DNA of 64,000 nt, taken from assembly GCF_029813115.1 (NCBI RefSeq), contig NZ_JAPZDS010000017.1:1-64000 (forward strand), in the 5' to 3' direction. A model generated the notes under the pieces. The model saw only the letters and a list, made by a program, of their open reading frames with translations, was not told the origin of the DNA and made no database searches. This document shows positions 1 to 31,530 of this stretch, in pieces. Within the stretch, counting starts at the first letter, position 1. Each line of letters opens with the position of its first letter. The position numbers and the translations under genes are program-made. This stretch comes from Aureimonas sp. SK2 (GTDB lineage Bacteria > Pseudomonadota > Alphaproteobacteria > Rhizobiales > Rhizobiaceae).

Positions 1-1620
1 CTTTTGTCGGTCATGTCCGACCAGACAGTTATACTCTGCACGGATGTTCCGCCGCCCCAGCTACCCGCGGTGCTGCGTACCCTTACCGACATACAGGTCA
101 TCATCGACCCTTTGGATGCCGGAGCTATGACAGGAATGCTCCGTCGACGCTTCACAGGTTGGGACGGTGTATGGCCAGCCGATTGCGATCCGGCGAGGCT
201 CTCTCCGGCTTTGATTGACGTTGCCATGACGCGATCGGCAGATGCAGAGCGAGCGATCTCCGTTCTGACGCGGCTGCATCAAACGCCCACGTTAGGCATG
301 CAACGCTCATCAACGCCCCGTGTCGCGCCGTTCGCAACGCTTGACGGATACGGTGAAGCCAAATCCTGGGGGCTTCAACTCGCTGCCGACATAGCATCGT
401 ATAAGGCAGGCAACTTGCCGTGGTCGGACGTAGATGACGGCGCGCTACTTGCCGGGCCGCCCGGCACCGGTAAAACGACGTTTGTGCAAAGTCTGGCTGA
501 GTACATCGGCTGCTCATTCACGGCAACGTCGTATGCTGACTGGCAGTCCAGCGGCTCAGGGCATCTCGGCGATGTCACCAAAAAGATCGCCAAGATATTC
601 AGCGAAGCGGCGGAGGAGACGCCTTCCATCGTTTTCATCGATGAAATCGACACTCTCCCCACAAGGTCCGGCAACGCAGCGAGTCAGGACTGGTGGAACG
701 CCATCGTCAATGCACTCCTCGAGCAAGTCGACGGCGCCTGCAGGCCAGATGGCGTCGTGGTCATCGCAGCTTGTAATGCACCGCAACGTTTGGACCCGGC
801 TCTCGTCCGGTCAGGGCGCCTCGATCGCACGTTCCACATCGCGCTTCCCGATGAAAGCGCCCTGAAGTCCATCTTTTCTTCGTATCTCAACGACCTTGTT
901 TCGGACGCAGACATTTCCACAGTCGCGACAGCCTTAGCAGGGACCATATCCGGTGCGGACGTCGCCCGTATTGCCCGAGATACGCGAAAACGCGCTCGTC
1001 ACGAAAGGCGCCCGGTGGTTGGCGCCGACCTCATGGCAGCTGCTTTCCCGCCGGACCGTCGACCACAGGCGATGCAATGGCGGGTCGCGATACACGAGGC
1101 AGGCCACGCGGTTGCATCGATGGCAATGGGAAATCTTCCGTCCTCAATATCGATCATGGCGACAGCTTCGACTGAAGGACATGTGCGATTTTCCACCAGT
1201 ATCGGCGACGGCACTCTCGATGACGTAATGCGTTCACTCGTCCCCGTTCTAGCCGGACGGGCCGCCGAGTTGAGCATTCTCGGTGCCGCGTCGGCCGGTG
1301 CCGGAGGTGGATTGCAGTCTGATCTCGGCGTGGCCACGAGCATGCTCGCTGCCCTTGATGGATTGGCCGGTCTAGGCACTCGGTTGCGCATATCGGAGAG
1401 TGCGGACGGCGCGTTCGTGGAGACGCAATTGCGACGCCTCCACGCTGAGGCGACATTCCTTGTCTGGCTTCACCGAGCGGCAATCATCGATCTCGCGACC
1501 ATCGTGATGACGGCGCGTGTTCTGGGGGAGGACGCGTTGAAGCGCTTCGCGGCCGAGCACGGCTACGCACCGAATGCGGTTGAACCCATCGACAATGACA
1601 ATATGGGAGAGTTGGCATGA
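1..1620 (+). CDS. AAA+ ATPase with C-terminal M41 (FtsH-like) zinc peptidase, 5' partial
   Basis: ATP-dependent zinc metalloprotease of the FtsH architecture, but with no membrane segment in the visible part, so probably cytosolic. Counting from the TTG at 4, Walker A GPPGTGKT lies at about residues 151-158, Walker B IVFIDEID follows about 55 residues later, and an arginine-finger region reads SGRLDR. The peptidase HEAGH zinc site is at 364-368, and the downstream SDLG probably supplies the third ligand. The frame is open at base 1. The paralogue at 31523 has about 130 more N-terminal residues, so the true start probably lies upstream; the ATG at 13 is the first internal ATG. The stop overlaps the next start (ATGA). 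Substrate unknown. The fold is certain; the cellular role is not. Confidence 0.85.
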   Translation, partial: LLSVMSDQTVILCTDVPPPQLPAVLRTLTDIQVIIDPLDAGAMTGMLRRRFTGWDGVWPADCDPARLSPALIDVAMTRSADAERAISVLTRLHQTPTLGMQRSSTPRVAPFATLDGYGEAKSWGLQLAADIASYKAGNLPWSDVDDGALLAGPPGTGKTTFVQSLAEYIGCSFTATSYADWQSSGSGHLGDVTKKIAKIFSEAAEETPSIVFIDEIDTLPTRSGNAASQDWWNAIVNALLEQVDGACRPDGVVVIAACNAPQRLDPALVRSGRLDRTFHIALPDESALKSIFSSYLNDLVSDADISTVATALAGTISGADVARIARDTRKRARHERRPVVGADLMAAAFPPDRRPQAMQWRVAIHEAGHAVASMAMGNLPSSISIMATASTEGHVRFSTSIGDGTLDDVMRSLVPVLAGRAAELSILGAASAGAGGGLQSDLGVATSMLAALDGLAGLGTRLRISESADGAFVETQLRRLHAEATFLVWLHRAAIIDLATIVMTARVLGEDALKRFAAEHGYAPNAVEPIDNDNMGELA

Positions 1621-2558
1621 GAACCGTCGCAACGAGCGGTCGCCCGGACACCGGAGCGGTTGAAAAGCCGGACCTCCTTGTCGATGAGGCCCCCAGAACG
1701 TTGGAGGATACGGCGCGCCGATTGGAGACAACGGGACTGTTTCGGGTCCTTCGCCGTCTTGAACCCCGCCCCATTCGGGCGCTTCCCGATCGAACGAGTT
1801 CCACGGCCCTTCGCGTGGCGATTGTGCTGGATACAGAGACGACCGGTCTCGATCCGGAGGTCGATGAAATCGTCGAGCTTGCGATGATCGCGGCCACGTA
1901 TGACGAGCACGGCCTTCATGATGTCGTTGGGCGTTTCACCGGCCTGCATGAGCCGTCGAAGAGTCTCACCCCGCAAATCACCTCGCTGACGGGTCTCACG
2001 CTGGAGGATCTGCGTGGCCACCAAATCGATCCTGATGCCGTCGCGGCCTTTATCAAGCGCACAGACGTCGTGATCGCCCACAACGCAGAATTCGACCGCG
2101 AATTTTGCCGCCGTCGTTTCGCGAGCCTCTCAGCGAAGACGTGGCTGTGCTCGTATCGTGATATCGACTGGCGCTCGTTCGGTGCCGAAAACAGCCGCCT
2201 CTCCGGCATACTGGGGCATGTCGGGTTGTTCCACACCGCCCATCGCGCAATGGCGGATTGCGATGCCTTGGTGGAGATCCTGGCCGCGGACCGATGGTCG
2301 GCAGCAGAGCGTTCACCGTTCGCAAGCCTGTTGGCGTCGTTGGGGACCGCCAAAGTCGAGATCATCGCAGGCGGCCCGACCTACGCTTGGCGGGATCAGC
2401 TAAAGGGCCGCGGATATCGGTGGTCCCCAGGAACGGCAACGACACCCAAAGGCTGGTTTATTCAACTCGCCAAAGCCGATGCCGATCGCGAGACCGTCTG
2501 GTTGAGCTCCACAGTCTACGCGAAAGAAGGCGCCCCGATCGTCCGAAGTCTCCGATGA
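1617..2558 (+). CDS. DEDDh 3'-5' exonuclease (DnaQ-like)
   Basis: A 313-residue protein with an RNase T/DnaQ exonuclease fold. Exo I is DTETTG at about residues 72-77 (D72, E74), Exo II is HNAEFDREF (D160), and Exo III is H209-x4-D214, so the DEDDh catalytic set is complete. About 60 residues precede the domain. About 90 follow it and contain a short conserved-looking segment (GRGYRWSPG, then PKGWF) of a kind seen in several DnaQ-like proteins. The ATG overlaps the stop of the AAA+/M41 gene by 4 nt, implying translational coupling and a shared function. It is too distant in context to be the replicative epsilon subunit; a repair or defence nuclease is possible but is only inferred. Confidence 0.85.
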   Translation: MRTVATSGRPDTGAVEKPDLLVDEAPRTLEDTARRLETTGLFRVLRRLEPRPIRALPDRTSSTALRVAIVLDTETTGLDPEVDEIVELAMIAATYDEHGLHDVVGRFTGLHEPSKSLTPQITSLTGLTLEDLRGHQIDPDAVAAFIKRTDVVIAHNAEFDREFCRRRFASLSAKTWLCSYRDIDWRSFGAENSRLSGILGHVGLFHTAHRAMADCDALVEILAADRWSAAERSPFASLLASLGTAKVEIIAGGPTYAWRDQLKGRGYRWSPGTATTPKGWFIQLAKADADRETVWLSSTVYAKEGAPIVRSLR

Positions 2559-2711
2559 ACATCAGTTGTCGGGGCGCAATAAAACACGCAACGGGTTCTT
2601 AACCGTAGCGCCGAATTTAAAAAGAAAGATTTCTCGAGGCGATGTTCACGCTTCGGACGCACTACGTTCACGAGAACATTCGATCAAACCAGTCTGCACA
2701 ACCGCTATCCT

Positions 2712-2759
2712 ACACCGGGAAGCGTTAACAAGCTATATCTAACACCGGGAGGAGTTAAT
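2712..2759. repeat. Tandem pair of 18-bp direct repeats, 30-bp period
   Basis: Two copies of ACACCGGGAxGxGTTAAy start at 2712 and 2742; 15 of 18 positions match. Spacing by about three helical turns and the position upstream of tnsA would suit TnsB-type binding sites, but transposase binding is an inference. No third good copy was found nearby. Confidence 0.45.
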
Positions 2760-2994
2760 AGACAGTAAATCTTCGATTCCTTGTGTGGAATCAACATGAT
2801 CAAGAGTCTTTGTAGACCCGATACCCGCGATTCAGAGTCAATTCTAACGATTCTTGCTTGCCGAAAACGAGAGTCAACTGGGTTTACTCGCCGGAGGCCT
2901 GAAATCCGCAAGCAACCAGATCGTGCAGACTCGACCTTTGAAGATTGAATCGCTAACTCGATTGTCGATGCGGAGTTATCCAGACTTCGCAGGT

Positions 2995-3033
2995 AATGAC
3001 CGGGGGTGTGTCACAACACACACCCCCGTCATT
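2995..3033. terminator. Long GC-rich hairpin upstream of the transposition operon
   Basis: The 11-bp arms CGGGGGTGTGT and ACACACCCCCG flank the 6-nt loop CACAAC. Outer AATGAC/GTCATT arms extend the pairing to about 17 bp with a single bulged C. No U-run follows on either strand, so a simple Rho-independent terminator is not certain. It could instead be a protein-binding site or a structured boundary insulating the tns operon. Confidence 0.45.
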
Positions 3034-3241
3034 AGCGTCGGCGTCAAACTATGAAAGTTTCAACATGAACTAGTCGTTCACGAAGAGTACTCGGCCCTGC
3101 AGACTTCCAGGAACGCTGGCCGAGCAGTCATCCATCCATCACGTCCGATCATCCGATCGTGTGCCGACATTTGCCGATTGCTCGCCAATCGTCAAGCGCG
3201 GTACCGGCGATAGCGGACGGTTGCCCTGAAAGAAGGCGTCC

Positions 3242-3478
3242 ATGGTTAACCACCCGCTGGCCCCGGCCAGAAATTCGTCATCGCGTTCGGCACGACATAC
3301 GCCGCATCGTTACCAGCTCCAAAACCCGTTGCCGCTGCCGGGAAGCCGCATGGCGGCTCTGCTTATCGACTTGCTCGATCAGCACACGCATCCGGCGTTT
3401 GATCGTGAAGACCACCCCGTCCGACTCGCTCTCAGCCAGGTTCCCGCGCTCTTGAACAAGCACGGAGGCATGTCTTGA
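3242..3478 (+). CDS. Small ORF coupled to tnsA, function unknown
   Basis: A 78-residue frame starting with ATG behind an AGAAGG-like ribosome site. Its TGA overlaps the TTG start of the TnsA gene (TTGA). The C-terminal half looks like real protein (helical, with leucine-rich LLIDLLDQ and LALSQVPALL segments), whereas the N-terminal third is low in hydrophobics. I recognise no family. It may be a leader ORF coupling translation into tnsA, an extra transposon gene, or chance. The overlap geometry matches the other joints of this operon, which is the main reason to list it. Confidence 0.35.
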   Translation: MVNHPLAPARNSSSRSARHTPHRYQLQNPLPLPGSRMAALLIDLLDQHTHPAFDREDHPVRLALSQVPALLNKHGGMS

Positions 3479-4152
3479 AGACGCGGTCTCTCGTGAACGA
3501 AGCCACCTTCCGTCCGCACGTCGAATCGTCGGCGGCGATCCGTCCCCCGAGCCGGTCGCGGGGATCCGTTCGCGGCGCTTTCACCGATGCGACGGGCCGC
3601 GAGGTTGTCTACGCGAGCACACTGGAGCGGGATTTCAGCGTGATCGCACTGACGCATCCCGACGTTCAGGCTGTTCAAGAACAGCCGCCGACGGTCGCTT
3701 ATCGCGACGTTGCGCGCATCCGGCATCACACGTTCGACTTCATGTTGCGACTGCGCTGTGGGACGTCGCTCGCGATCGCCGTTAAGCCGTCTTGGCGCGT
3801 CGCGTCGTCTGGTCTTGAGCGGACGCTGACGTTGATCGCTGCCCAGCGGCCGACGTTCGCGGACCGCTTCGAGATCCGCACCGAGCGCGACATTTGCCGA
3901 GTAGCCGCTAGAAACGCCCGACTCATCCTGCACTCGCGCCGTTTGATGATCGACGATGCCATCGCAGAGGTGACGGCGATCGTCGAGTCGCTGCGAGGCG
4001 CTTGCACCATCGAGGTGATCTGCGCGCAGATACCGCATCAGCCGCTGGCCTTTTTCGCCGCCATTCGGCTGATCGACAACGGGCACCTGCGCTGTGCGAC
4101 CTCGGGTTTGATCACCGCAGCGACGCTCGTCGAACGCGTGGAACACGCCTGA
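3475..4152 (+). CDS. tnsA: TnsA-like transposon endonuclease
   Basis: A 225-residue TnsA-type nuclease, the subunit that cuts the non-transferred strand so that Tn7-like elements move by cut-and-paste. The TnsA catalytic triad is visible as E51 (STLERDF), D88 (HTFDFML) and K104 (IAVKPSW), with spacing close to that of Tn7 TnsA. The start is TTG, overlapping the small ORF upstream; no better ATG precedes the conserved region. It ends in TGATG, sharing one base with the tnsB start. With tnsB, tnsC and tniQ it forms a single operon. Shorter than Tn7 TnsA (273 residues), but both the nuclease domain and a C-terminal TnsC-contact-like region are present. Confidence 0.85.
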   Translation: MKTRSLVNEATFRPHVESSAAIRPPSRSRGSVRGAFTDATGREVVYASTLERDFSVIALTHPDVQAVQEQPPTVAYRDVARIRHHTFDFMLRLRCGTSLAIAVKPSWRVASSGLERTLTLIAAQRPTFADRFEIRTERDICRVAARNARLILHSRRLMIDDAIAEVTAIVESLRGACTIEVICAQIPHQPLAFFAAIRLIDNGHLRCATSGLITAATLVERVEHA

Positions 4153-6428
4153 TGTCAAAGGCACTCCCTCGAACCTCTGCCCACCTAATCACCGATCAAA
4201 CTCGACAGTCCGGCCAACGCTTCGCGTTCGCGCCCATGTCGCTCGTTGAAATCAGCGGGATTCTCTTCGTTCCCGTCGCCTCAGACGAGCATGCACATGT
4301 CATGAGGCGGGCTGATGCTCCTGACTTGGTCGAGAGTTTCACGCATGCCCACCTGGCGGACTACCAGAAGCGCGGGCTGCTGATCGAACGCGCCGGAGCG
4401 CTCTCCACGACGTCAGCTCTTCTAGCGGCAAGCCGTCCATGTGAACGATTGGTTGACCTGCCGAAAGCCCGGATGGAAGCCGTGCTTTTCCGCAAGCAGA
4501 TCTGCGATGCAATCCTCCGGGCGCTCGAACACGGCGAAACATCGCTTTCGGACAAAGCCCTGTCGAAGACCATCTCTGACGCGTGGCTTCAGTACGCAGA
4601 AGACGCAAGGCGCCGGACGTCGCCCGATGGTCGCTGCGGAAAGTCCACAACGATCCCCAACCCGCCGTCGCCTACGACGGCCCGCCGCTGGATGAAAATC
4701 CTCAAAGCGGCCGCCTACGATCCGATGTCGCTGTGCCCGAACTACGGCCGCAGCGGAAACCGGTTGTCACGCTTCGAACCGGAAGAGCAAGTTCTGCTTC
4801 GCCGTTTCGCCGCCCGCTATGCCAGCCTGCGCAAGCCTACGAGAATCGGCATCTGGCGTGAAATGAGAGCGATCGTCGACCGCCTCAATCGCATGCGCTT
4901 CCACGCCGGTCTGCGCCAGTTGGTGTGTCCCGGACGTTTGGCCCTCTCGCACGCGATTGACCAACTGGACGAATTTGCCGTCTACGTGGGTCGCGAAGGC
5001 GCCGATGCCGCCAAACGTCGGTTCGCAATCACCGCTCGAGGGCTGGAGGTCGACCGGCCGCTCGAACGCGTCGAGGCAGACGAGTGGAAGCTCCCTCTTC
5101 AAGTCATCCTGACGAACGCGGGATTGTGGAAGCAGTTGAATCGACTGCAGCGTAAGGCGGTTGAGACGAGCCGGCTCTGGTTGTCGACCGTGATCGACGT
5201 CCGCACGAAGGTTGTTTTGGCGATGCGGCTCAGCCGCACGTGCACGGCAGCGAACGCGATTTCGACTCTTCAAATGGCGGTATCCGACAAAAGCGCTTAC
5301 GCGCAAGCGGCCGGGTGCAAGTCGCCTTGGGATCAGGGTGGCATTTTCGAGACACTCGGCGCCGACGCCGGACCGTCGTTCAGATCCGGCGAGTTTCGTG
5401 GCACGGTGCTCGATCTGGGCGCGGAGTATCTAAACCCGCAGGCTGGCACGCCGCGCATGCGAGGCACGCAAGAGCGTCTATATCGGACGCTCCATAGCCA
5501 ATTCATCGCGCTGTTCGACGGTCGCTCGTTCATGAATGTCGTCGAAAAAGGCGATTACGACAGCGAGGCCAATGCGACCCTCGACATCGAAGCGATCGCA
5601 AAACTGATCGTTCGTTTCGTTGTCGACGTTTACCATAATACCCCTCACCGAGGGCTTGGCGGTCAGACGCCGCGCAATGCATGGATCGACCTTTGTCGAC
5701 GTTACGGCGTCCGGCCCCCGCCGTCGAAGGCGCAGGCTGCTGCGATCTTTGGCACCGTGGTCGAGCGGCGGATCACGAACTCGGGCGTTGCGTTCTGCGG
5801 TCTGCGCTACCAGTCCCTTCCCCTTCAGCGCATTCGACGCGGGAAGATCCGTCACGATGTAAAAATCCGGGTCGATCCTTCCGACCTCGGATGGGTTTGG
5901 GCATTCGACGGCTCCGTCTGGCAGCGCGTTCCATGCATGCGGCAAGGAATGGAGGGGGTCAGCCTGGAGCAGTGGCTCTTGGCGGCAGCGACTGCGAGAC
6001 GCCGCTACGCGGATGAAGCTGCAACATCCGAACCGGTGGTCCTAGAAGCGCTGCGTGACGTCCGGGCGGCCGCGGAGGGCGCAAGACGGCGAGCGGGTAT
6101 CGCCTCGCCTGTCCTTTCGGACGCAGACTACCGCCGTATCGAGAAGCACTTTTTCAGTGGTTTCGACAGAGCCGACGCAGACGCGATCGACATTCTGGCC
6201 GAACGCTCACACCCCGTAGAAACGAAGATGATCGATCACGACCCGGCTCCGCCGGAGCGGCTGGCAGTGTTGCCCCCCACCTCCATCGACGTCCGTGCTG
6301 TCGACTCTTCGGAGTATGCAACGGACGATGACTTGATAGCCGCCAGCTTTGTCTTGGAGCGCGACGTCGAACCGGACGAAGAGCCCGACGAGGATGACTT
6401 CGAAACCAAATTCACCTTGGAGGACTGA
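4152..6428 (+). CDS. tnsB: TnsB/TniA-like DDE transposase
   Basis: A 758-residue Mu/Tn7-family transposase that joins the 3' transposon ends to target DNA. The integrase (rve) core carries D310 (VEADEW), D405 (GADAGPSF) and E441 (GTQERLYRTL), giving the expected D-x35-E spacing. Downstream, NTPHRGLGGQTPRNAW marks the end of the rve core and is followed by a Mu-transposase-type C-terminal domain. The C-terminus is very acidic, as in TnsB proteins that contact TnsC there. The ATG at 4152 shares one base with the tnsA stop and keeps the family-length N-terminus; a longer upstream frame exists but would run inside tnsA. Confidence 0.9.
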   Translation: MSKALPRTSAHLITDQTRQSGQRFAFAPMSLVEISGILFVPVASDEHAHVMRRADAPDLVESFTHAHLADYQKRGLLIERAGALSTTSALLAASRPCERLVDLPKARMEAVLFRKQICDAILRALEHGETSLSDKALSKTISDAWLQYAEDARRRTSPDGRCGKSTTIPNPPSPTTARRWMKILKAAAYDPMSLCPNYGRSGNRLSRFEPEEQVLLRRFAARYASLRKPTRIGIWREMRAIVDRLNRMRFHAGLRQLVCPGRLALSHAIDQLDEFAVYVGREGADAAKRRFAITARGLEVDRPLERVEADEWKLPLQVILTNAGLWKQLNRLQRKAVETSRLWLSTVIDVRTKVVLAMRLSRTCTAANAISTLQMAVSDKSAYAQAAGCKSPWDQGGIFETLGADAGPSFRSGEFRGTVLDLGAEYLNPQAGTPRMRGTQERLYRTLHSQFIALFDGRSFMNVVEKGDYDSEANATLDIEAIAKLIVRFVVDVYHNTPHRGLGGQTPRNAWIDLCRRYGVRPPPSKAQAAAIFGTVVERRITNSGVAFCGLRYQSLPLQRIRRGKIRHDVKIRVDPSDLGWVWAFDGSVWQRVPCMRQGMEGVSLEQWLLAAATARRRYADEAATSEPVVLEALRDVRAAAEGARRRAGIASPVLSDADYRRIEKHFFSGFDRADADAIDILAERSHPVETKMIDHDPAPPERLAVLPPTSIDVRAVDSSEYATDDDLIAASFVLERDVEPDEEPDEDDFETKFTLED

Positions 6429-6430
6429 GC

Positions 6431-7543
6431 ATGGCGATTGAAACATCTAGTAAAGAACCGATCAACGCTATCGACCGGCTGCGTGCCCACCGCAATGCTG
6501 ATGATGTTGCGAAGAGCAAGCGCGTCCAGCACGTTCTGAATGCGTATCTCCCTTTGCCTCGTGACGAGGAACTTAAGGATCGCCTTAACGACCTTATCGA
6601 GCACTGCGCGATGGCCTTGGAACAGGTGTCCGAGGGACGCGCCCGTGGCCGTCTCTTGGAGGGGCGTGCATTCTGCCTGATCGGTCAATCCGGAACCGGA
6701 AAGACCACTGTCCTGCACAAAGCTCTCGCCCGCGTGAAGGCGTTCGAGGGCTATCAAGACCCGACCAGTGACAGCCTGCTGATCTCGATCGTTGCCCCCT
6801 CCCCTGGTGTATCGAAGCAAGTGGCGATGCAGCTTCTGAGAGCCCTTGGGTACAAGACCGAACGGGTTCTGCAGGAAAACGTCGCATGGGATCTGGTTCG
6901 TCGCCAGATCGCGTTGCGCGGCGTACGCTTCGTGCACATCGATGAGCTGCAGCATATCCATCAAGTCCCGAACCCGATCGAGATACAAAAGGTGCGCGAT
7001 ACGCTGAAGTCGCTCATGCAGAACAGCGTGTGGCCAGTATCGCTGATCCTGTCGGGAACGCCTGAGATCGCGCCATTCCTGCAAGCCGATACGCAAATCC
7101 GACGCCGGTGCACGATCGTACGGTTCGACAGCCTCAGCATGCCTCGGGACATCGCCATCGTGCGGACGATCGTCACGCAGTTTTGCCAACGCGGAGGCCT
7201 TGAGCACGATGGCTTGATACGCGATCCACGAAGCAAAGAGGATAAAGCCACCGACGAATTCGTCCGACGGCTCGCGCACGCATCGATCGATGAAATCGGC
7301 ATAGTCATCGAGATGGTGCAGGATGCGATCACGATCGCAATCCGAGCCGGAGACGACAAGCTGACGGACGGACATTTTGCGTCGGCGTATCAGCGTCGGA
7401 CCGGTTGCGACGCTATGCGCAACGTTTTCTTGGCCTCCGAATGGGAAACGATTGACGTGCGCAGCGCGCTGTATCCTGAAAACGCTTTGGAGGAAGAGGA
7501 TCGAAGCCGCCGCCGCTCTGTGAAGAACGGGAGCACACATTGA
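6431..7543 (+). CDS. tnsC: TnsC/TniB-like AAA+ transposition regulator
   Basis: A 370-residue AAA+ ATPase that links the target selector to the transposase. Walker A GQSGTGKT is at residues 85-92, and Walker B FVHIDELQHIH carries D171-E172; sensor-like LSGTPEI follows. The N-terminus up to residue 60 is helical and would be expected to touch the acidic TnsB tail. It begins two bases after the tnsB stop, and its TGA overlaps the tniQ ATG by one base (TGATG), so all four tns genes are translationally linked. The size fits TniB/TnsC proteins of smaller Tn7-like elements; Tn7 TnsC is 555 residues. Confidence 0.88.
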   Translation: MAIETSSKEPINAIDRLRAHRNADDVAKSKRVQHVLNAYLPLPRDEELKDRLNDLIEHCAMALEQVSEGRARGRLLEGRAFCLIGQSGTGKTTVLHKALARVKAFEGYQDPTSDSLLISIVAPSPGVSKQVAMQLLRALGYKTERVLQENVAWDLVRRQIALRGVRFVHIDELQHIHQVPNPIEIQKVRDTLKSLMQNSVWPVSLILSGTPEIAPFLQADTQIRRRCTIVRFDSLSMPRDIAIVRTIVTQFCQRGGLEHDGLIRDPRSKEDKATDEFVRRLAHASIDEIGIVIEMVQDAITIAIRAGDDKLTDGHFASAYQRRTGCDAMRNVFLASEWETIDVRSALYPENALEEEDRSRRRSVKNGSTH

Positions 7544-9393
7544 TGCTGCTCCACCGCTCGTTTGTCCCGCACCTGCATGAAGACGAGACGCTTACTAGTG
7601 CCGTCTCGCGCACGTCCGCCCGCCTCGGCCGCACCGCTCGCGACTTCTGCGCGGATTACGGAGGCGTCTTCCAGGGCATAGTGGAGGGTCGACCGGACGA
7701 ACTTCGATTGTTCGAGAGGACAATTGGACGCCCTTTTCCGGGGGTGATCGTCGAGGGGGGTGGCCGGACCTTCGCGATGGCGAACCAGCAGTTTCCGCGT
7801 CACCTCCTGAGCCGCGGCCGCCTGCGGGTGTGCCCTTGCTGCATCGAGGACGATATGAAAAGCGGCAGCGGGCCGATGGAGGCGAGACCGTATGGTCGAG
7901 CTATCTGGCTGATCGACGCGATCCGCACGTGCCATGTGCACGGCATGGCCCTCGTCGTTATCGACAAGGATCCCGCACCGTCCAGATTGCACGATTTTGC
8001 GCAACTCGTGGCGCCTTTTGCGGAAGGCCTCAGCCACGGCACATTCGCGACCAAGGGTAGACAGCCATCCCCCCTAGAGAGTCACCTGATCAATCTGTTT
8101 CAGGGCAGGACCGGCGGGACGGGCTGGCTCGCAACCTACCCGCCCTATGCGGTGGTTAGCCAATGCGAGATCTTCGGCGCGGTCGTTGCTCATGGCTCGT
8201 CGGCTACTCCCGCGTCGTTGACGGGGGATGAACTGTACGCTGCAGGCCAACTTGGGTTCGAAATTTTGGACGCGGGACCATCCTCGATCGAAGCCGCTCT
8301 GAAGAGCCTCGTTGCTGCTCACGGGGCGAAGAAAGGCGAGCTTGGCGGGCGGCTTGTGTTCGGACGCCTGTATGAATGGCTCGCGCATGAGACCGATGAC
8401 GCAGTCTACGAGCCGCTTCGCGTCATCATGAGGAACGTGGCGGTAAACGCGTTGCCTCTCGGACCAGGCGAAACCTTCCTTGGGAAAGCCGTTGAGGAGA
8501 GGAAGGTACATTCCATCCACACGCTGCATCGGTCGACCGGTGAACACCCGAAACGTCTGCGTAAGCTCCTCGTGGCCGCTGAAGTTGTCGGGCCCGAAAC
8601 CTCCGGTCTGTCGGACGATCGAGTCGTTTTCCCTGCCGCTGTTGCCGATAGCCTGAGTGGTAAAGTGCTAGGGGCGATGACCCTGGCCGGCGCAGCTCGA
8701 TACCTCGGTGTTCCCCGGCCGAACGACCGTGCTCTACTCACCTCGGGTGTCATCGACCCCTTAGTCTCGACGTCGCATCGCGGTCCCCTCAAGAATGTGT
8801 ACTCCGTTGCGGATCTCGACCGTCTGGTGGAGCGCCTCCACGCCGATGCCTCACCAATCGATGCGTCCGAGACGCACCTCGTGCCAATCCTGTCTGCCGC
8901 GAAGAAGGCGAACTGTTCCGTCATGGAAGTTGTTCAACTTCTGCTCGATAGGCGGCTTCGCGCGGTTCGCATCAAGCCGAATTTGAAGCCTTTCCCCTCG
9001 ATCGCGGTCGATCCCAAAGAAGTCGGTACGCTAGTCCGGGGACCCGAACACGGCGGGATGTCGCTTCGGGAGGTGATGCGCCGAATGGGAACGAACGATT
9101 CGGTCGTGAAAGCACTTGTCGATGCCGGTCACCTTCCGTCGAAACGAGCGATCAATCCGACGAACAGATGTCCACAAACGGTGGTGCTTGAACCTGACCT
9201 ATTTGAATTCTCGGCTCGGTATGTATCGCTGATGAACCTCGCCAAGGAACTCGGCGTGCATTTCCGACGGCTGAGCGCGGAGATCACTCGAGGCGGCGCG
9301 GTGCCAGCATTTGATCCGGAAACTGTTGGTGCAACGTTTTATGAGCGATCGGTTGTGGAACCGTTGATTGATAAGGCACCGACAGATCACTGA
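7543..9393 (+). CDS. tniQ: TnsD/TniQ-like target-selection protein
   Basis: A 616-residue TniQ-family protein. The N-terminal TniQ domain opens with the typical HEDETLTSAVSRTS pattern. It contains a zinc site: C97-x2-C100 in RVCPCC, then C130-x2-H133 in RTCHVHG. The long C-terminal half, with several winged-helix-like segments, resembles TnsD rather than short TniQ proteins, and suggests recognition of a fixed DNA attachment site rather than partnership with a CRISPR complex. No CRISPR genes or arrays occur in the window. The ATG at 7543 (one-base overlap with tnsC) is preferred to the TTG at 7540. A terminator follows at once. Confidence 0.85.
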   Translation: MLLHRSFVPHLHEDETLTSAVSRTSARLGRTARDFCADYGGVFQGIVEGRPDELRLFERTIGRPFPGVIVEGGGRTFAMANQQFPRHLLSRGRLRVCPCCIEDDMKSGSGPMEARPYGRAIWLIDAIRTCHVHGMALVVIDKDPAPSRLHDFAQLVAPFAEGLSHGTFATKGRQPSPLESHLINLFQGRTGGTGWLATYPPYAVVSQCEIFGAVVAHGSSATPASLTGDELYAAGQLGFEILDAGPSSIEAALKSLVAAHGAKKGELGGRLVFGRLYEWLAHETDDAVYEPLRVIMRNVAVNALPLGPGETFLGKAVEERKVHSIHTLHRSTGEHPKRLRKLLVAAEVVGPETSGLSDDRVVFPAAVADSLSGKVLGAMTLAGAARYLGVPRPNDRALLTSGVIDPLVSTSHRGPLKNVYSVADLDRLVERLHADASPIDASETHLVPILSAAKKANCSVMEVVQLLLDRRLRAVRIKPNLKPFPSIAVDPKEVGTLVRGPEHGGMSLREVMRRMGTNDSVVKALVDAGHLPSKRAINPTNRCPQTVVLEPDLFEFSARYVSLMNLAKELGVHFRRLSAEITRGGAVPAFDPETVGATFYERSVVEPLIDKAPTDH

Positions 9394-9416
9394 ACCAGCA
9401 GCGCAGTCATCTTCCC

Positions 9417-9447
9417 AAACCCCCGGCCTTACGCCGGGGGTTTTTTT
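9417..9447 (+). terminator. Rho-independent terminator of the tns operon
   Basis: A perfect 11-bp stem, AAACCCCCGGC against GCCGGGGGTTT, encloses the 5-nt loop CTTAC and runs into a seven-T tract, starting 24 bp after the tniQ stop. Confidence 0.92.
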
Positions 9448-9835
9448 AGTGCCTGATTCCTAGAGAGGTGGGTTGCGCCAGTTGTCTGACAGCAGGTTGA
9501 GCCACTTCAATGACTTCACCGCAAATGTAGTTGCGCCAACCTTCAAAAATTACTTATTGATAACAACGATTTACGTTCCACATGCGCCATCCTATGCCGT
9601 GTCTTTCATCTCGCTCGGCGTCGCAAAGGTTCGCTCGATCTCGCCTGAAGTTCGCTCACCTCCGGCAGCGTACTAAAGTTGGTAACCGGACTCTCAGCGG
9701 CACGATGGTTTGCCTCAGCGCACTCTGAAGCACTTGTCGTGGCACGTTAGCTCTGCCGCAGTTTCCGAAGGCCTGTAAAGCAGGCCTCGGAGCCTGGAAT
9801 TCGACGGCTTAACCTCGGTCGCATGAGGCGACGTC
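9448..9835. other. Non-coding stretch after the transposition operon
   Basis: About 390 bp with no supportable gene. It contains two GTTGCGCCA copies (near 9473 and 9529) and a small hairpin GGCCTG-N5-CAGGCC near 9769. The far end of the Tn7-like element may lie in or beyond this region, but no terminal repeat matching the 2.7 kb repeats was recognised. No tRNA or glmS-like attachment gene was seen. Confidence 0.3.
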
Positions 9836-9873
9836 AAAAGGCCCGGGCGGATCTCATTCCGCTCGGGCCTTTT
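9836..9873. terminator. Bidirectional hairpin terminator
   Basis: A 15-bp stem with one G-T wobble, AAAAGGCCCGGGCGG against CCGCTCGGGCCTTTT, encloses an 8-nt loop. The flanking A and T runs would allow termination in either direction. No complete gene ends immediately before it on either strand, so it may have belonged to a gene now lost. Confidence 0.75.
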
Positions 9874-10062
9874 CGATTCCAAGTTGGTCGCTTCACGACC
9901 GGGACCATCACCAGCAAGAGTCGGCGAACAGGCGCGCTGCGTCCGCATCCGTCGTCAGCACCGAGATGACCGCGGGCAGCGATCGGGGCGTTCGGTTGCC
10001 GCTTGCTCCGTCACCAGCCAGCCTTCGTCCACTGGCACGGTGAAGGGGATGGGAGGACCGAC

Positions 10063-12766: not shown

Positions 12767-13864
12767 CTAGCCGGCCAGCACCTTCTCGATCCGCTCGCCC
12801 ACCCAGCGCATCATCGGCACCGGCATGGAGTTGCCGATCATCTTCGAGCGGCCGGTCTCGGAGGTCCACTGACCCGTCTTCTCGGACCAGTTCCCCTTCG
12901 GCGTCGGCTTAGGGACCAGCGACCAGTCGTCGGGGAAGCCCTGGAGCCGCTCCTCCTCCCGCGCGGTCAGCTTGCGGGCCATGATCTCGCCGGACTTGTC
13001 GCGGTAGTAGACGTAGTTCATCTGCCCGCCCCCGTTCTTCCGGGCGGTCAGCGTGCCGACGATCCCGGCCATCGGGACCTCGCCGTCCTGAACGCTGTAG
13101 ACGGGGCCGTCGGGCGTCGGGCGCAGCGGGACGCGCATGTGGATCAACCGTCCGCCGGAGACTCCGAGTCCCGTAAATGCTCGAGGAATTCCTGGAGACC
13201 TTTCGGCAGCGCTTTTTTCATGCGGGCGGTCCGGAGCGGAATGGCGTTGTGGACCTTCGGCTTCAAGTAGGATCTCGGCGGCGTCAGGGCCTCCGAGAGG
13301 AACTCCGACAAGCACGACGCGATTGCGCCGTTGGGCCAAGCCCCAGTGTTCGGCCCCGAGCAGTCGCCAAGCGAGGGATCGGCGGGGTCCCACGACTCGA
13401 CCAAAGTGCGTCCACCTTTTCCCTGGCGGAACGAGAGGACCTGCGGTCTCTCCGGCGAGAATTGCCAGGAGATGGCCGAACGCGTTGTCCTTCCCCGTGT
13501 CGAGGACGCCGCGGACGTTTTCCCAGACGACGACTTTCGGGTCGAGGGCATCGACAAGCTCCGCATACTTGAGGGTCAGGAGGCCAAGCTGGTCGGAGAG
13601 TCCGCCGCGCTTGCCCTTTGAGGAGAATGCCTGGCAGGGCGAGCCGCCGACCAGGACGTCGATGGGACCGCACGCCTTGGCCCGGTCAGCGAAGTCGGGC
13701 GCGGCGATGTCGCCGAGGTTCGGCACGTCGCGCAGGCGGTGCCGGAGGACGTGGTTCGCCATCCGATCGATTTCGGCGACGAATGCGGTCTCCCAGCCGA
13801 GCGGGTGCCAGGCGACGCTGGCCGCCTCGATGCCGGAGAACACGCTTCCGAATCGCATCCGCAT
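12767..13864 (-). CDS. C5-cytosine DNA methyltransferase (Dcm family)
   Basis: A 365-residue methyltransferase that transfers methyl from SAM to C5 of cytosine. Motif I SVFSGIEA starts at residue 7. The catalytic motif IV GGSPCQAFS carries C77, and WENVRG gives the ENV motif at 115-117. AQRRNR is motif VIII, and IGNSMPVPM near the C-terminus is motif X. The variable target-recognition region between VIII and IX is short, as in small phage- or island-borne enzymes. No intact cognate restriction enzyme is adjacent; the broken nuclease gene ending at 14002 is a candidate former partner. It ends in TAG. The frame then stays open into the next gene, probably by chance. Confidence 0.92.
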   Translation of the reverse strand: MRMRFGSVFSGIEAASVAWHPLGWETAFVAEIDRMANHVLRHRLRDVPNLGDIAAPDFADRAKACGPIDVLVGGSPCQAFSSKGKRGGLSDQLGLLTLKYAELVDALDPKVVVWENVRGVLDTGKDNAFGHLLAILAGETAGPLVPPGKRWTHFGRVVGPRRSLAWRLLGAEHWGLAQRRNRVVLVGVPLGGPDAAEILLEAEGPQRHSAPDRPHEKSAAERSPGIPRAFTGLGVSGGRLIHMRVPLRPTPDGPVYSVQDGEVPMAGIVGTLTARKNGGGQMNYVYYRDKSGEIMARKLTAREEERLQGFPDDWSLVPKPTPKGNWSEKTGQWTSETGRSKMIGNSMPVPMMRWVGERIEKVLAG

Positions 13865-15403: not shown

Positions 15404-17182
15404 TCATGCGAACTTGAAGCCGAATAGCCCGCCTTCCTCCGTGTCGCTCAGCTTGACGGGCAATATGGCTGCCGTCGGATCGTCCTCCTCCTGGAAGGCC
15501 AGCGTCGAGAACTGGTCGACGTTCATGAGCGCGATGTACTGGGTTCCCAAGGCGGCGGCGGTGCGCCCTCCGACGACGATGGCCGTCGCGGCCTGCCGCG
15601 GATCCACCCCGTCGAACAGGTGGCTGTCGTGGATGAGGAAACCCGGCCCCCCGTGGCGCGGTTTGGTGACGGTGGCAAGCGCGTGGTCCATGCAGAAGAT
15701 CTCCATGTTCGCGATGCCGCCGCTCCTGTCCCCCTCGATGGATATGTCGAACTCGGGACCCCTCGTGGTGGCCTCGACTTCCAGGTGGCCGTCCCGTTCG
15801 GAGTAGAGTGCCTCCTTGGCCTCGGAAACGGCAAGCGCCGCTTCGTCGAGGACGAGCCAGCGGTCGTTGAAATCCGCGAGCAGACGCAGGCGCAGGCGCT
15901 CCCGTTCGATCTTGCTGTCCCCTCCCTCGAGCTCGAGTTGCTGCCGATCGCGGAACTCCTCCTCGAGGCGGTTCGCCTCCGAGATGCGGGACGCCAAGAT
16001 CCTCTGCTGCTCCACCAAGTCGCTGAACGCTCCCCTTCCGGACAGGGAGGCGAGTATCTCGCTACGCCTCCGCTCGCGGTCAGCGATCTCGCCCCGCAGG
16101 CGTTTAAGCCCCTCGGTTGCCTCGGCGACCGCAACCTCGAGGTGCCGGCGCCGGTTCGCCACGACCGAGGCGTGGAACGCTCGCACGTCCTCGAACGAGC
16201 GGAGGGCCTGCATGGGCAACTGCACTCCCGCCATCTCGTACATTGCCGCGACGTCCTGTTCGGGAGCCGGGCGATGGGAGTCTGACGTCGTCTCCAGGAG
16301 GTGCCTCACCTTCGTCTCGAGGATGGACGCATCCTTCGCGAGCGTCTCGAGCTCCTTCTTCAAGCGTCCCGCCTCGGCGGCGAGGTCGCCGTACTGGTCC
16401 AGGACGACGAACCCGCTCACCCTTCTGGTCGCTTCGGCGGCCTTCGCCTTTGCGACGGCCAAGTCCGCGCGCAGGGACGCCAAGGATCGTGCGCTGCCGG
16501 GATGACGCTGCGCGAACCGCCGCTTGAGGACCTTGACTTCAGCCTCGGCCCTGCTGACGTCGTCGAACTCGCGCGCGATCCTCCAGTCCAGCCCGAAGAG
16601 GTACGATAGGGCGACGCGTGCATCCAAGTCGCTCTGCCGCTTGGAGAACCTCGCCGCATCGAGAAACCCCCCGTCCTCGCGGCGCCGAGCGAAGTAGCCG
16701 AACAGCGAACGGAAGGTGGGGGCGTGGGGAAGCGACATGGCCGGGTCCTGGCCGACCCGGAGGCCGAACACGCGATCACCGAGCCAACGCCTCCATTCGT
16801 CGAGCGCCACGGTATGGCCACCGTCCCCGCCGTCGGATTGCCAGGTCATCCCGAGGGTGCCCGGATGCGGCGAGACGACGATCTTGCGCGGGTTCGACCC
16901 GCGACGGCGAACCTCCACCTCCACCTCTCCGAACATGAAGCGCCCCCTGAACTCGTACCCTTCCAAGGCGGGGTCGCGAAGTAGAGAGCCCTTGTCGGCG
17001 TTGGCACCGAGGAGGAAATGGACGATCTCGACGAGGCTCGACTTGCCGGAACCGTTGAGGGTCTCGGTGTCGCTCGCGTCCGCGTGGCGGTCGGCGAGGA
17101 GGATGTTAAGGCCCGGCCGGAACTCCACGCGCTTGAAGGTCGGCAGGTCGCTGTCGATCTCGACGATGATGACGGCGTCCAA
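15404..17182 (-). CDS. ABC-3C system SMC-like ATPase (DUF2326 type)
   Basis: A 592-residue ATPase of the ABC-three-component kind, a group computationally linked to defence and conflict. The N-terminus has a PTF-x-x-V-x-F start and Walker A NGSGKSS at residues 43-49. Long coiled-coil stretches fill about 210-430. The C-terminal lobe holds an ABC-signature-like GDRSGGI and the FLIHDSHLF Walker B block; IALMNVDQFSTL is typical of DUF2326. The start appears to be TTG at 17182, because no ATG precedes the conserved part. It follows the effector and middle-component genes on the same strand as their operon partner. Confidence 0.78.
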   Translation of the reverse strand: MDAVIIVEIDSDLPTFKRVEFRPGLNILLADRHADASDTETLNGSGKSSLVEIVHFLLGANADKGSLLRDPALEGYEFRGRFMFGEVEVEVRRRGSNPRKIVVSPHPGTLGMTWQSDGGDGGHTVALDEWRRWLGDRVFGLRVGQDPAMSLPHAPTFRSLFGYFARRREDGGFLDAARFSKRQSDLDARVALSYLFGLDWRIAREFDDVSRAEAEVKVLKRRFAQRHPGSARSLASLRADLAVAKAKAAEATRRVSGFVVLDQYGDLAAEAGRLKKELETLAKDASILETKVRHLLETTSDSHRPAPEQDVAAMYEMAGVQLPMQALRSFEDVRAFHASVVANRRRHLEVAVAEATEGLKRLRGEIADRERRRSEILASLSGRGAFSDLVEQQRILASRISEANRLEEEFRDRQQLELEGGDSKIERERLRLRLLADFNDRWLVLDEAALAVSEAKEALYSERDGHLEVEATTRGPEFDISIEGDRSGGIANMEIFCMDHALATVTKPRHGGPGFLIHDSHLFDGVDPRQAATAIVVGGRTAAALGTQYIALMNVDQFSTLAFQEEDDPTAAILPVKLSDTEEGGLFGFKFA

Positions 17183-17415
17183 GCAAGCGACACCACGCCG
17201 TCCCGTGACTCCACCGCCCCGATGGCGAACAGGAAACTGAGTGCGAGCGCGAACCAGTCGAAGGTGATCGACGTCGCGCCGCGCGGTCTCCCGCCCTCGA
17301 CCGCGGCCCAGAGCTCGCTAACTCCCCGCTCGGAGCCGCGAAGCTGCTCGAGGATGTCGGCTCCGATCACGAGCAGGGACCTGTCGGCGGGAAGGAACTT
17401 GCCGGGAAGTATCAT
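17180..17415 (-). CDS. ABC-3C middle component (MC6-like)
   Basis: A small winged-helix-like middle component joining effector and ATPase. It starts MILPGKFLPADRSLLVIG, a close match to the start of middle component 6 proteins. It continues with SELWAAV and FDWFALALSFLFAIGAVE, the hallmark of the same family, and reaches its expected end near 17180. The ATG overlaps the effector stop (ATGA). Oddly, no stop codon occurs at the expected place: the frame remains open to 16846, through the out-of-frame first 337 bp of the ATPase gene. A lost stop or a small indel is likely. The coordinates mark the conserved part only. Confidence 0.65.
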
Positions 17416-18362
17416 GGCCGGGACGGGACCCAGCCGGCCGGCGGCTCTTCGAAGATGACGCATCCCTCGAACATCGTCCCGACGAGGCTCCTCGCGGCGT
17501 TCAGTCTCACCGCCGGGTCGGTTGGCCTTGCCAGCATGTCGATCAGCCTCTGCAATATGGTTCCGGGGTCGAGGCCCTGCGTCCTCAGGTCAACGTACTG
17601 GCTGCGGAAGAAGTTCGGAACCTCGACGGAGGCGCGCGGGTCGCCGAAGCCCTCGATGCACTCCGCGACCGTTTCCGAGTGGAAGCTCGCCTGGAGAAAC
17701 GCAACCTGCCAGTCGTTGGGGATCCCGTTGAACTCCATCTTTCCGAAGGACACGGTCCCGACGGTCATGGCGGCGGGCGAGAGCCTGCCCGCGCGCTCCA
17801 TCACCTCGAAGATCATCCCGTTCACGACGTCGGGGAGCGAGGCCCTCTCCATCTCCTCAAGCGCGCGGATGCCCAGAAGGTATTCGAGATCCTGCTCGCT
17901 GAGGTCCTTCAGGTGGGCCCGAAAGGATTCGAAGCCGAAGTGGGACACGGCGATGCCCTTGCGTCGGCCGGCGTCGGTCGCGGCCTGCAACGCCAGCGCC
18001 GACTTAGTCGGAAGGGCGTTCAGGTTGTGGACGAACCGCCAGGACTTCATGTCCGGCACGGTCTTCCGCGCCGTCGCGAAGTCCGCCTCGATCTTCTTCG
18101 CGACGTAGAGGTCCCGGTCCTTGGCCGGGCCGGACGACGCGCCGTAGCATTGGTAGACCGTGCCGTTCGGCCCATGGTACCCGTCGAGACCGCCGTCGCC
18201 CCGGTTTCCGTAGGATTCGATGGGTACGAACGCGTCACCGTGCACGCACGCCATGAACCGGGCGAAGAAGTCCTGGAAGGCGTTGCCGGACGCCAGGAAC
18301 ACTGCGTTCCGCAAGGCGACCGTCCAATGTCCCAGATCCGCCAAGCCCGTCTCCCGAATCAT
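17412..18362 (-). CDS. ABC-3C system effector-like protein with nuclease-like N-terminus
   Basis: A 316-residue protein, first gene of the three-gene ABC-3C unit. Residues about 52-73 read NRGDGGLDG followed by GTVYQCYGAS. This is the pattern of an Mrr/PD-(D/E)XK-like nuclease fold (D60, then the QCYG strand), although the usual lysine of the QxK motif is not seen. The C-terminal half (about 190-316) matches the conserved tail region shared by ABC-3C proteins, ending in a domain likely to bind the middle component. It overlaps the MC6-like gene by 4 nt. DNA cleavage is inferred, not shown. Confidence 0.68.
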   Translation of the reverse strand: MIRETGLADLGHWTVALRNAVFLASGNAFQDFFARFMACVHGDAFVPIESYGNRGDGGLDGYHGPNGTVYQCYGASSGPAKDRDLYVAKKIEADFATARKTVPDMKSWRFVHNLNALPTKSALALQAATDAGRRKGIAVSHFGFESFRAHLKDLSEQDLEYLLGIRALEEMERASLPDVVNGMIFEVMERAGRLSPAAMTVGTVSFGKMEFNGIPNDWQVAFLQASFHSETVAECIEGFGDPRASVEVPNFFRSQYVDLRTQGLDPGTILQRLIDMLARPTDPAVRLNAARSLVGTMFEGCVIFEEPPAGWVPSRP

Positions 18363-31194: not shown

Positions 31195-31530
31195 ATGCCC
31201 ATCTTCCTCACGCCGTCCTCGGGGCCGGACGTGCTCGACCGCGAGATCGAAAGCACGGCCGCCCTCCTGCGCGACCTCCGGTACCTGCGTGACCATCGCG
31301 CGCCGTCCGATACCATGTTGGCGGACGCGCGTGTCCTCAGCGCTTGGTCCTCGGAGTTGCGAATGGTCCCGTGCCTGCGCGGCCGGCCCGCAGGCCATCC
31401 AGTCGTCCGCGACGGGCGCGACGCCGTCACGTCGCCTCTGCGCGTCGTCGCGCTCGACGCCGGCTACGTTCGCACCGAGAGCCGGTTCTGGCTTCTCGGC
31501 GCTCCCGCTGCGGGAGGCGGCCATGCATGA
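31195..31530 (+). CDS. Small conserved-looking protein, possibly DUF6634 type
   Basis: A 111-residue soluble protein with a helical first half (EIESTAALLRDLRYLRDHRAPSD) and a beta-rich second half. The block VLSAWSSELRMVPCLRGRPAGHPVV, and the near-terminal VALDAGYVRTESRFWLLG, recall small alphaproteobacterial proteins labelled DUF6634; this match is from memory and unverified. It overlaps the AAA+/M41 start by 8 nt, implying translational coupling and a shared role. Confidence 0.6.
   Translation: MPIFLTPSSGPDVLDREIESTAALLRDLRYLRDHRAPSDTMLADARVLSAWSSELRMVPCLRGRPAGHPVVRDGRDAVTSPLRVVALDAGYVRTESRFWLLGAPAAGGGHA

Follow-up and report, generated by a model that had tools for sequence, protein, structure and literature searches.

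An FtsH-Type Protease Gene Paired with a DEDDh Exonuclease-Like Gene Beside a Tn7-Like Operon in Aureimonas sp. SK2: a Mostly Soluble-Looking Family with Apparently Exchangeable Partners

Results and Discussion

The DNA investigated here, called the window in the following, comprises 64,000 nucleotides of Aureimonas sp. SK2 (NZ_JAPZDS010000017.1, positions 1 to 64,000) and represents the start (64 of 80 kb) of a contig in a draft genome of 4.56 Mb. Genomes, loci and contigs are designated by G, L and C numbers, respectively, with G000 as the own genome and C9 as the contig of the window. Six genes follow each other on the same strand in the order protease, exonuclease, tnsA, tnsB, tnsC and tniQ, and an island of Lamassu-like and methyltransferase genes comes next (Table 1). 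Guanine plus cytosine (GC) content per kb is 0.55–0.62 in bases 1–10,000 and 0.60–0.72, mostly above 0.64, beyond; a codon model trained on the window called no gene within bases 1–10,000. On these two grounds the block looks foreign to the chromosome. A tRNA gene was not found in the window. The preliminary description of this DNA had placed a transposition operon and a defence-type island next to the protease/exonuclease pair. Both were confirmed, the former by tnsA, tnsB, tnsC and tniQ in Tn7-like order, the latter by the methyltransferase, LmuB-like and LmuA-like genes.

Table 1. Genes and repeats annotated in the window.
Feature	Position	Strand	Basis
AAA+/M41 protease gene	1..1620	+	539 aa visible; 5' end missing at start of contig C9; Pfam AAA, Peptidase_M41; FtsH-family matches in the PDB
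DEDDh 3'-5' exonuclease-like gene	1617..2558	+	313 aa; Pfam RNase_T 1.2e-18; PADLOC DEDDh 2e-27; motifs
Two direct 30-nt units, 77% identical	2698..2757	+	between exonuclease and tnsA; candidate operator or transposase sites
tnsA-like gene	3475..4152	+	Pfam Tn7_TnsA-like_N 22.0 bits (cut-off 26.5); E, D, K triad by eye; clusters with TnsA-like open reading frames
tnsB transposase gene	4152..6428	+	Pfam Mu-transpos_C; PADLOC TnsB; start inferred from overlap with tnsA stop
tnsC/tniB ATPase gene	6431..7543	+	Pfam TniB 2.9e-13
tniQ target-selector gene, long (617 aa)	7540..9393	+	Pfam TniQ 1.3e-14
Pair of ~22-nt repeats (units by eye)	9696..9765	+	probable element-end sites; in other genomes shortly 3' of nrdJ or following tniQ
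16-nt inverted repeat, terminator-like	9836..9873	.	similar hairpin after repeats in L199, L200, L201
C5-cytosine DNA methyltransferase gene	12767..13864	-	Pfam PF00145 1.9e-36; PADLOC MTase_II
PDC-M68B/LmuB-like (Lamassu-like) gene	15404..17182	-	Pfam DUF2326; PADLOC PDC-M68B 422 bits, LmuB 1.3e-8
LmuA-like partner gene	17412..18362	-	PADLOC LmuA 2.8e-5

The open reading frame (ORF) at 1–1620 matches the Pfam families AAA with 2.9e-30 and Peptidase_M41 with 31.4 bits (cut-off 29.9). Its translation contains GPPGTGKT at residue 152, IVFIDEID at 210, an arginine-finger region at 256, HEAGH at 365 and SDLGVAT at 440, where D441 is presumably the third zinc ligand. An AlphaFold2 model with a mean pLDDT (predicted local distance difference test) of 83.5 was compared with the PDB; the best 50 of 1531 matches (E ≤ 0.001) are all FtsH-family entries or FtsHi motor complexes, with FtsH, AFG3L2, YME1 and FtsHi among the matches listed. 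The weak Pfam M41 score is therefore no artefact. In AAA-M41 order, Walker and HExxH-D motifs and predicted fold, the protein is similar to FtsH, m-AAA and i-AAA proteases, but identity to their structures is only 16–26% among the matches listed, and the region of the pore motif reads YADWQSSGSGHLGD, as compared by eye with the FtsH motif.

A complete AAA+ and zinc-peptidase set lacking membrane helices had been proposed for this protein. The motifs are indeed complete, whereas the gene is not. Its translation aligns with the family profile from profile position 130 of 659 and base 1 of the window is base 1 of contig C9, so about 130 N-terminal residues are missing. Since the N-terminus lies off the contig, membrane helices cannot be judged from the window copy and solubility has to be deduced from relatives. 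There, 63 of 71 proteins with a measurable N-terminal part show no 19-residue segment above 1.7 on the Kyte-Doolittle scale before Walker A, in contrast to the housekeeping FtsH proteins from the same genomes, which carry a strong N-terminal hydrophobic segment in 21 of 21 cases. Judging by these relatives, the family is mostly soluble-looking and the window protease is probably cytosolic.

The catalytic features are widely kept: HExxH occurs in 82 and the third-ligand pattern in 63 of 83 relatives, and the third-ligand aspartate is invariant across a nine-sequence alignment. The frames of 85 relatives are mostly 620–800 aa long, with few shorter or longer ones. Some protease match at 1e-20 was obtained in 294 of 297 genomes of the same family, where in many cases the best match reaches only the level of housekeeping FtsH (~1e-26 to 1e-31) and a distinct group scores far stronger; this search covered the strongest rows, with few candidates scored per genome. 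Among plasmids, 374 records match at 1e-20, a number not sorted by family. The own genome contains two further genes of the family. One, at window positions 31523–33472, lies in chromosome-like DNA (GC ~0.69) with transporter-like neighbours (by eye), and the other (G000:C34) has an internal stop.

As described before, the exonuclease overlaps the protease by 4 nt, its start lying within the protease stop codon, and its DEDDh set is complete with D72, E74, D160, H209 and D214 (DxE, D, H-x4-D). A pairing restricted to this strain, or random among relatives, had been named as refuting evidence, and here the outcome is divided. Homologs of the exonuclease gave 82 matches in 70 of the 297 genomes, and at least five of them (G000, G174, G102, G037, G274) adjoin an AAA/M41 gene among the matches listed; a sixth case (G307, same genus) was found via its flank. 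By chance about 0.02 adjacencies are expected instead of five, a rough estimate which assumes ~150 protease rows (an inexact count) and ~4,500 genes per genome. On the other side, 77 of the 82 matches have no adjoining protease among the matches listed. The same picture was obtained from 86 protease loci picked from the best genome and plasmid matches with near-duplicates kept: an exonuclease stands beside five and is missing from 81. One of the five, in L084, is non-homologous and DEDDy-looking (by eye) and was dropped as a family member, so that the homologous pairings are those of the window, L058, L093 and L095 (4/86 loci) together with G037 and G307, which were added later.

Within these six pairings the DEDDh residues are lost in L058 and G307 and intact in the window, G037, L093 and L095. 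Catalytic loss in two of six argues against simple DNA digestion as the common function. G307 and G037 share the order protease-exonuclease-tnsA-tnsB-tnsC-tniQ with the window, yet their proteases are not close to that of the window in the tree (the G307 row is partial). Four changes of the label for homologous exonucleases are needed on the protease tree, or three if the partial G307 row is left out, and well-supported branches force only two for a label that includes L084. Eleven further exonuclease loci contained no protease match, four annotated plasmid loci have unrelated neighbours, and 398 plasmid records match the exonuclease. The pairing is far above chance by the rough estimate, yet it is a minority arrangement; a role of the exonuclease as universal partner of the protease is rejected by these counts, and it looks like an exchangeable rather than an obligate partner.

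The frequency of the exonuclease on its own would also suit ordinary cargo, in which a gene for proteostasis would lie beside an exonuclease that commonly stands alone, with no joint function, and the two forced label changes are compatible with a single old pairing followed by losses. Against this stand the excess of adjacencies over chance and the DNA-enzyme-like partners found at most protease loci (see below), and we regard it as improbable.

To define partners, ORFs around the 86 loci were clustered by homology and counted on the same strand within 800 nt; counts within 7 kb are higher. A TnsA-like family (F1) was found at 27 loci, a PD-(D/E)xK-like family (F3) at 17, metallophosphoesterases (MPE) at 16 and an exonuclease (EXO, including that of L084) at five, and 59 of the 86 loci contain at least one of these four. 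DUF6634, a small protein, recurs beside the protease at 17 loci. F1 proteins comprise ~210 aa and show no Pfam match up to E 0.1. In an hhalign comparison of twelve profile pairs, the F1 profile matched one of two TnsA-like sets with a probability of 93 (E 3e-7) and the other with 13. The catalytic E is present in one of 17 readable sequences and the K of D-x-K in none of 15 (27 F1 in all), as read by pattern at positions equated with TnsA by eye. F1 is a probable dead TnsA. For F3, a weak AHJR-like Pfam match (E 0.011) and a D...DxK motif (by eye) were obtained.

A 4-nt overlap with the protease is also formed by the exonuclease in L058 and by metallophosphoesterases in L048–L050 and L129. 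Label changes on the protease tree amount to 12 for F1, 7 for F3 and 5 or 9 for MPE, depending on the treatment of second-partner loci. All labels are clustered, since none of 500 shuffles was as low for F1, F3 and MPE and five of 500 for EXO. The protease seems usually to retain a DNA-enzyme-like partner but to swap its identity. Two loci show arrays of such genes. At 6732–10660 of L231 (G274:C9:88000-107000), F1 is followed by a catalytically dead exonuclease, by DUF6634 and by an exonuclease that is intact; a protease match is lacking, so these partners occur there without it. L084 (Methylorubrum extorquens CM4 pCMU01) has a continuous series of a metallophosphoesterase, the AAA/M41 protease, the DEDDy-looking exonuclease and a second phosphoesterase, with two TIR genes nearby.

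Linkage to Tn7-like elements was determined for 47 of 56 tnsB rows, nine fragments or weak rows being omitted. Housekeeping-FtsH-like M41 rows (~1e-72 to 1e-80) were removed by hand and some fragments kept, such as the M41 fragment of G209. A soluble-type AAA/M41 gene lies within 45 kb of 28 of the 47 tnsB loci and within 11 kb of 17, compared to 1.7 and 0.42 expected under uniform placement with contig breaks ignored. This recurrent linkage strengthens the earlier claim of a mobile-element location. In 27 of the 28 linked loci the protease is found on the tnsA side, on the same strand in 12 and on the opposite strand in 15, and in several it directly precedes the tns genes. The one-sided position may only reflect tniQ marking the element end. 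Across the order, tnsB was detected at 1e-40 in 13 of 347 genomes, of which 11 belong to other families; in five of the latter the protease stands on the tnsA side at a distance of up to 4.4 kb, and the exonuclease was detected in none of the five. Rhizobium sp. CF080 (L250) reads F1, protease, tnsA, tnsB, tnsC, tniQ. Seen from the protease, the TnsB family was found at a distance of up to 7 kb at just 9 of the 86 loci (some loci being truncated by contig ends), so that the tns operon is not the only setting of the protease.

Whether the protease belongs to the transposition core was addressed by a partial Mantel test on tree distances in up to 22 elements chosen for holding the protease, with housekeeping FtsH as host control; short proteins were dropped beforehand, leaving 19 TniQ and 21 M41 sequences of 22. 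After host control, TnsB tracks TnsC (0.65, 21 elements) and TniQ (0.49), unlike M41 (0.03, p 0.36, 21 elements); TniQ-M41 is weak (0.17, p 0.046) and M41-F1 reaches 0.60 (16 elements). An earlier run without the filter for short proteins gave 0.14 for TnsB-M41, 0.49 for TnsB-TniQ and 0.02 for TnsB-Dcm. Tracking of F1 but not of TnsB points towards a coherent module moving between elements. Within host lineages, the protease thus appears to be passed from element to element together with its TnsA-like partner. An assignment of the protease as a core transposition gene is weakened by this test; it behaves as an exchangeable accessory module, which would be compatible with a regulatory role.

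Transposition control is, next to defence or competition, one of the two leading functional options, among which the earlier suggestion of a protease-plus-nuclease unit that could target transposition complexes or invading DNA survives. Here the protease would remodel or degrade the transposition complex of its own element, and the TnsA-like or exonuclease partner would dock or trim flanking DNA. The strong linkage to tnsABC-tniQ suits this explanation (27 of 28 proteases lie on the tnsA side, 12 of the 28 share the strand and several are directly upstream), as does the adaptor-like character of the commonest partner, the TnsA-like F1 seemingly devoid of catalytic E and K. Disassembly of the Mu transpososome and flap resection are described to need ClpX (PMC3325207), a proposed analogy in which an AAA+ unfoldase is likewise tied to a DDE transposase; there, however, the element does not encode ClpX, which is a protein of the host. 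The distances speak against transposition control, as M41 does not follow TnsB in the way TnsC and TniQ do and follows TniQ only weakly. Further, TnsB was not found within 7 kb at 77 of 86 protease loci (some are truncated by contig ends), the assemblies used show no protease up to 45 kb from 19 of 47 tnsB loci, and one-sidedness would be expected of all cargo should tniQ mark the end of the element. We rate this control function as doubtful but the strongest of the competing explanations.

The Lamassu-like pair at 15404–18362 lies near the C5-methyltransferase just past the transposition genes. At other protease loci, neighbouring ORF families include Dcm, PIN and HTH (names by eye) and a helicase family whose sole scanned member matches PDC-S37/Hhe; L085 has an annotated Xre/MbcA/ParS-type antitoxin. 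The AAA part of the window protease matches PADLOC IetA with 1.7e-24, and PADLOC assigned IetA, TRIP13, weaker AAA-type, DEDDh and PDC-S48 matches to the protease/exonuclease pair and no complete system.

Some of these neighbours could also belong to a toxin-control or protein-quality unit, in which the protease keeps a potentially harmful partner low until stress or loss of the element frees it as a conditional effector. Coupled expression is suggested by the overlaps of 4 nt that the protease gene forms with both exonuclease and metallophosphoesterase genes, which encode unrelated types of enzyme, and the antitoxin of L085 and the nearby PIN and HTH ORFs would fit. F1 and two of the exonuclease partners look dead, so no nuclease toxicity is expected from them, and such a unit appears rather improbable to us.

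Our preferred interpretation is that the pair forms an accessory, cargo-type module of a Tn7-like transposon which may serve defence or competition of the element, with a probability of roughly 0.45. It is based on the occurrence of the protease away from tns genes, on the defence-type neighbours and on the exchange of the module. The protease would form an FtsH-like hexamer in the cytosol. Its partner, be it a live or dead nuclease, a TnsA-like protein or a phosphoesterase, would bind a particular DNA or nucleoprotein structure and either hand the bound proteins to the protease or cut after the protease has cleared them. The element would gain from the removal of proteins of incoming phages, plasmids or rival elements, and in the window version the intact exonuclease could degrade the DNA thus exposed. 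A more elaborate form would be a transposon-borne immune or exclusion system, in which dead nuclease relatives (F1, pseudo-exonucleases) act as adaptors feeding rival transposition or replication complexes to the soluble FtsH-type protease, live-looking partners (DEDDh exonuclease, metallophosphoesterases, PD-(D/E)xK) destroy the stripped DNA, and partner swapping re-targets the protease; this full scheme is unlikely.

Several observations weigh against defence or competition as the function of the module. None of the five partner families is found at 17 of the 86 loci, and at 10 more DUF6634 is the only one. Single-sequence queries, which reach close relatives only, found no protease relative in viral contigs. 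The IetA match is limited to the AAA domain, and the defence-type neighbours are guilt by association, the neighbourhood counts having no matched control. In the distance comparisons, M41 correlates with the host housekeeping FtsH (0.51), the values without host control rise to 0.20 for TnsB-M41 (p 0.015) and 0.37 for TniQ-M41 (p 0.0004), and a PIN-like cargo tracks TnsB better than the protease does (0.35 after host control, 12 elements).

FtsH is a textbook subject of membrane biology. From FtsH, m-AAA and i-AAA proteases the family studied here is set apart by the 63 of 71 relatives with no strong N-terminal hydrophobic segment, by its partner genes and by its mobile-element location. In Pseudomonas aeruginosa clone C, FtsH2 is an extra FtsH on a genomic island, as here, but it keeps transmembrane helices and the MFVG pore motif, and no nuclease partner is mentioned in the part of the paper at hand (PMC6629908). 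Tn7-like transposons are described to carry defence systems as cargo and to use varied target selectors (PMC8649781, PMC10293859), and the combination of tnsABC-tniQ with large cargo is shared with the locus described here. The main texts of both papers, as available, mention neither FtsH or a peptidase, protease occurring only in reagent names (PMC10293859), nor nrdJ. In the full-text literature searched, including PMC8649781, PMC10293859 and PMC11406308 as far as accessible, with supplements and many subscription papers outside its scope, no account of Tn7-like elements with a soluble FtsH-type protease was found.

A further comparison concerns defence. The window AAA domain matches IetA profiles, and the combination of AAA ATPase and protease is likewise that of IetAS. 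The IetAS defence system consists of an AAA ATPase and a serine protease, whereas in the window protease a single chain joins the AAA part to an M41 zinc domain, and the partner is nuclease-like.

The repeats flanking the operon were searched for element ends. The 30-nt motif between exonuclease and tnsA is found at no other place in the window; a transposon end at this position was considered as one possibility. In L044, L045 and L053 the gap between protease and tnsA seems to hold a similar frame of ~40 codons just upstream of tnsA (by eye). A pattern for the second of the ~22-nt repeats at 9696–9765 was searched for in 24 genomes and occurs at seven places in five of them. Two of these follow tniQ (window and G307), four lie ~71, 74, 97 and 236 nt past the nrdJ stop of G307, G174, G102 and G037, respectively, and one is in G174:C41, with neither gene within the stretch examined. 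We infer an attachment site just 3' of nrdJ, which would correspond to elements of ~70–100 kb (G102, G037). The pattern was absent from the remaining 19 genomes, in several of which protease and tnsB are linked, so the nrdJ site can hold for part of the elements only. In L199, inverted copies of the repeat (one found by pattern, one by eye) separate tniQ from the direct copies, and in G274 a hairpin directly follows nrdJ. In the own genome, the nrdJ contig C30 ends 763 nt past the stop, and the left end of the window element lies beyond contig C9.

A stretch at window positions 9608–9691 was not used as element end. It is 86–94% identical to stretches in C89 of the own genome and in G309 and G310, where they lie close to contig ends, and resembles an insertion-sequence end; the G309 copy lies ~120 nt 3' of nrdJ. 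Only sub-threshold Rfam matches were obtained for RNA in the right flank, and a general repeat search for element ends gave coding-looking pairs only.

Conclusion

A soluble-looking FtsH branch on mobile elements would, if true, open a new use of AAA+ proteases, either in policing nucleoprotein complexes in conflicts between elements or in the control of Tn7-type transposition. The apparently dead TnsA-like partner makes both ideas directly testable. In addition, nrdJ as a possible attachment site offers a clue to how long TniQ proteins may choose their targets.

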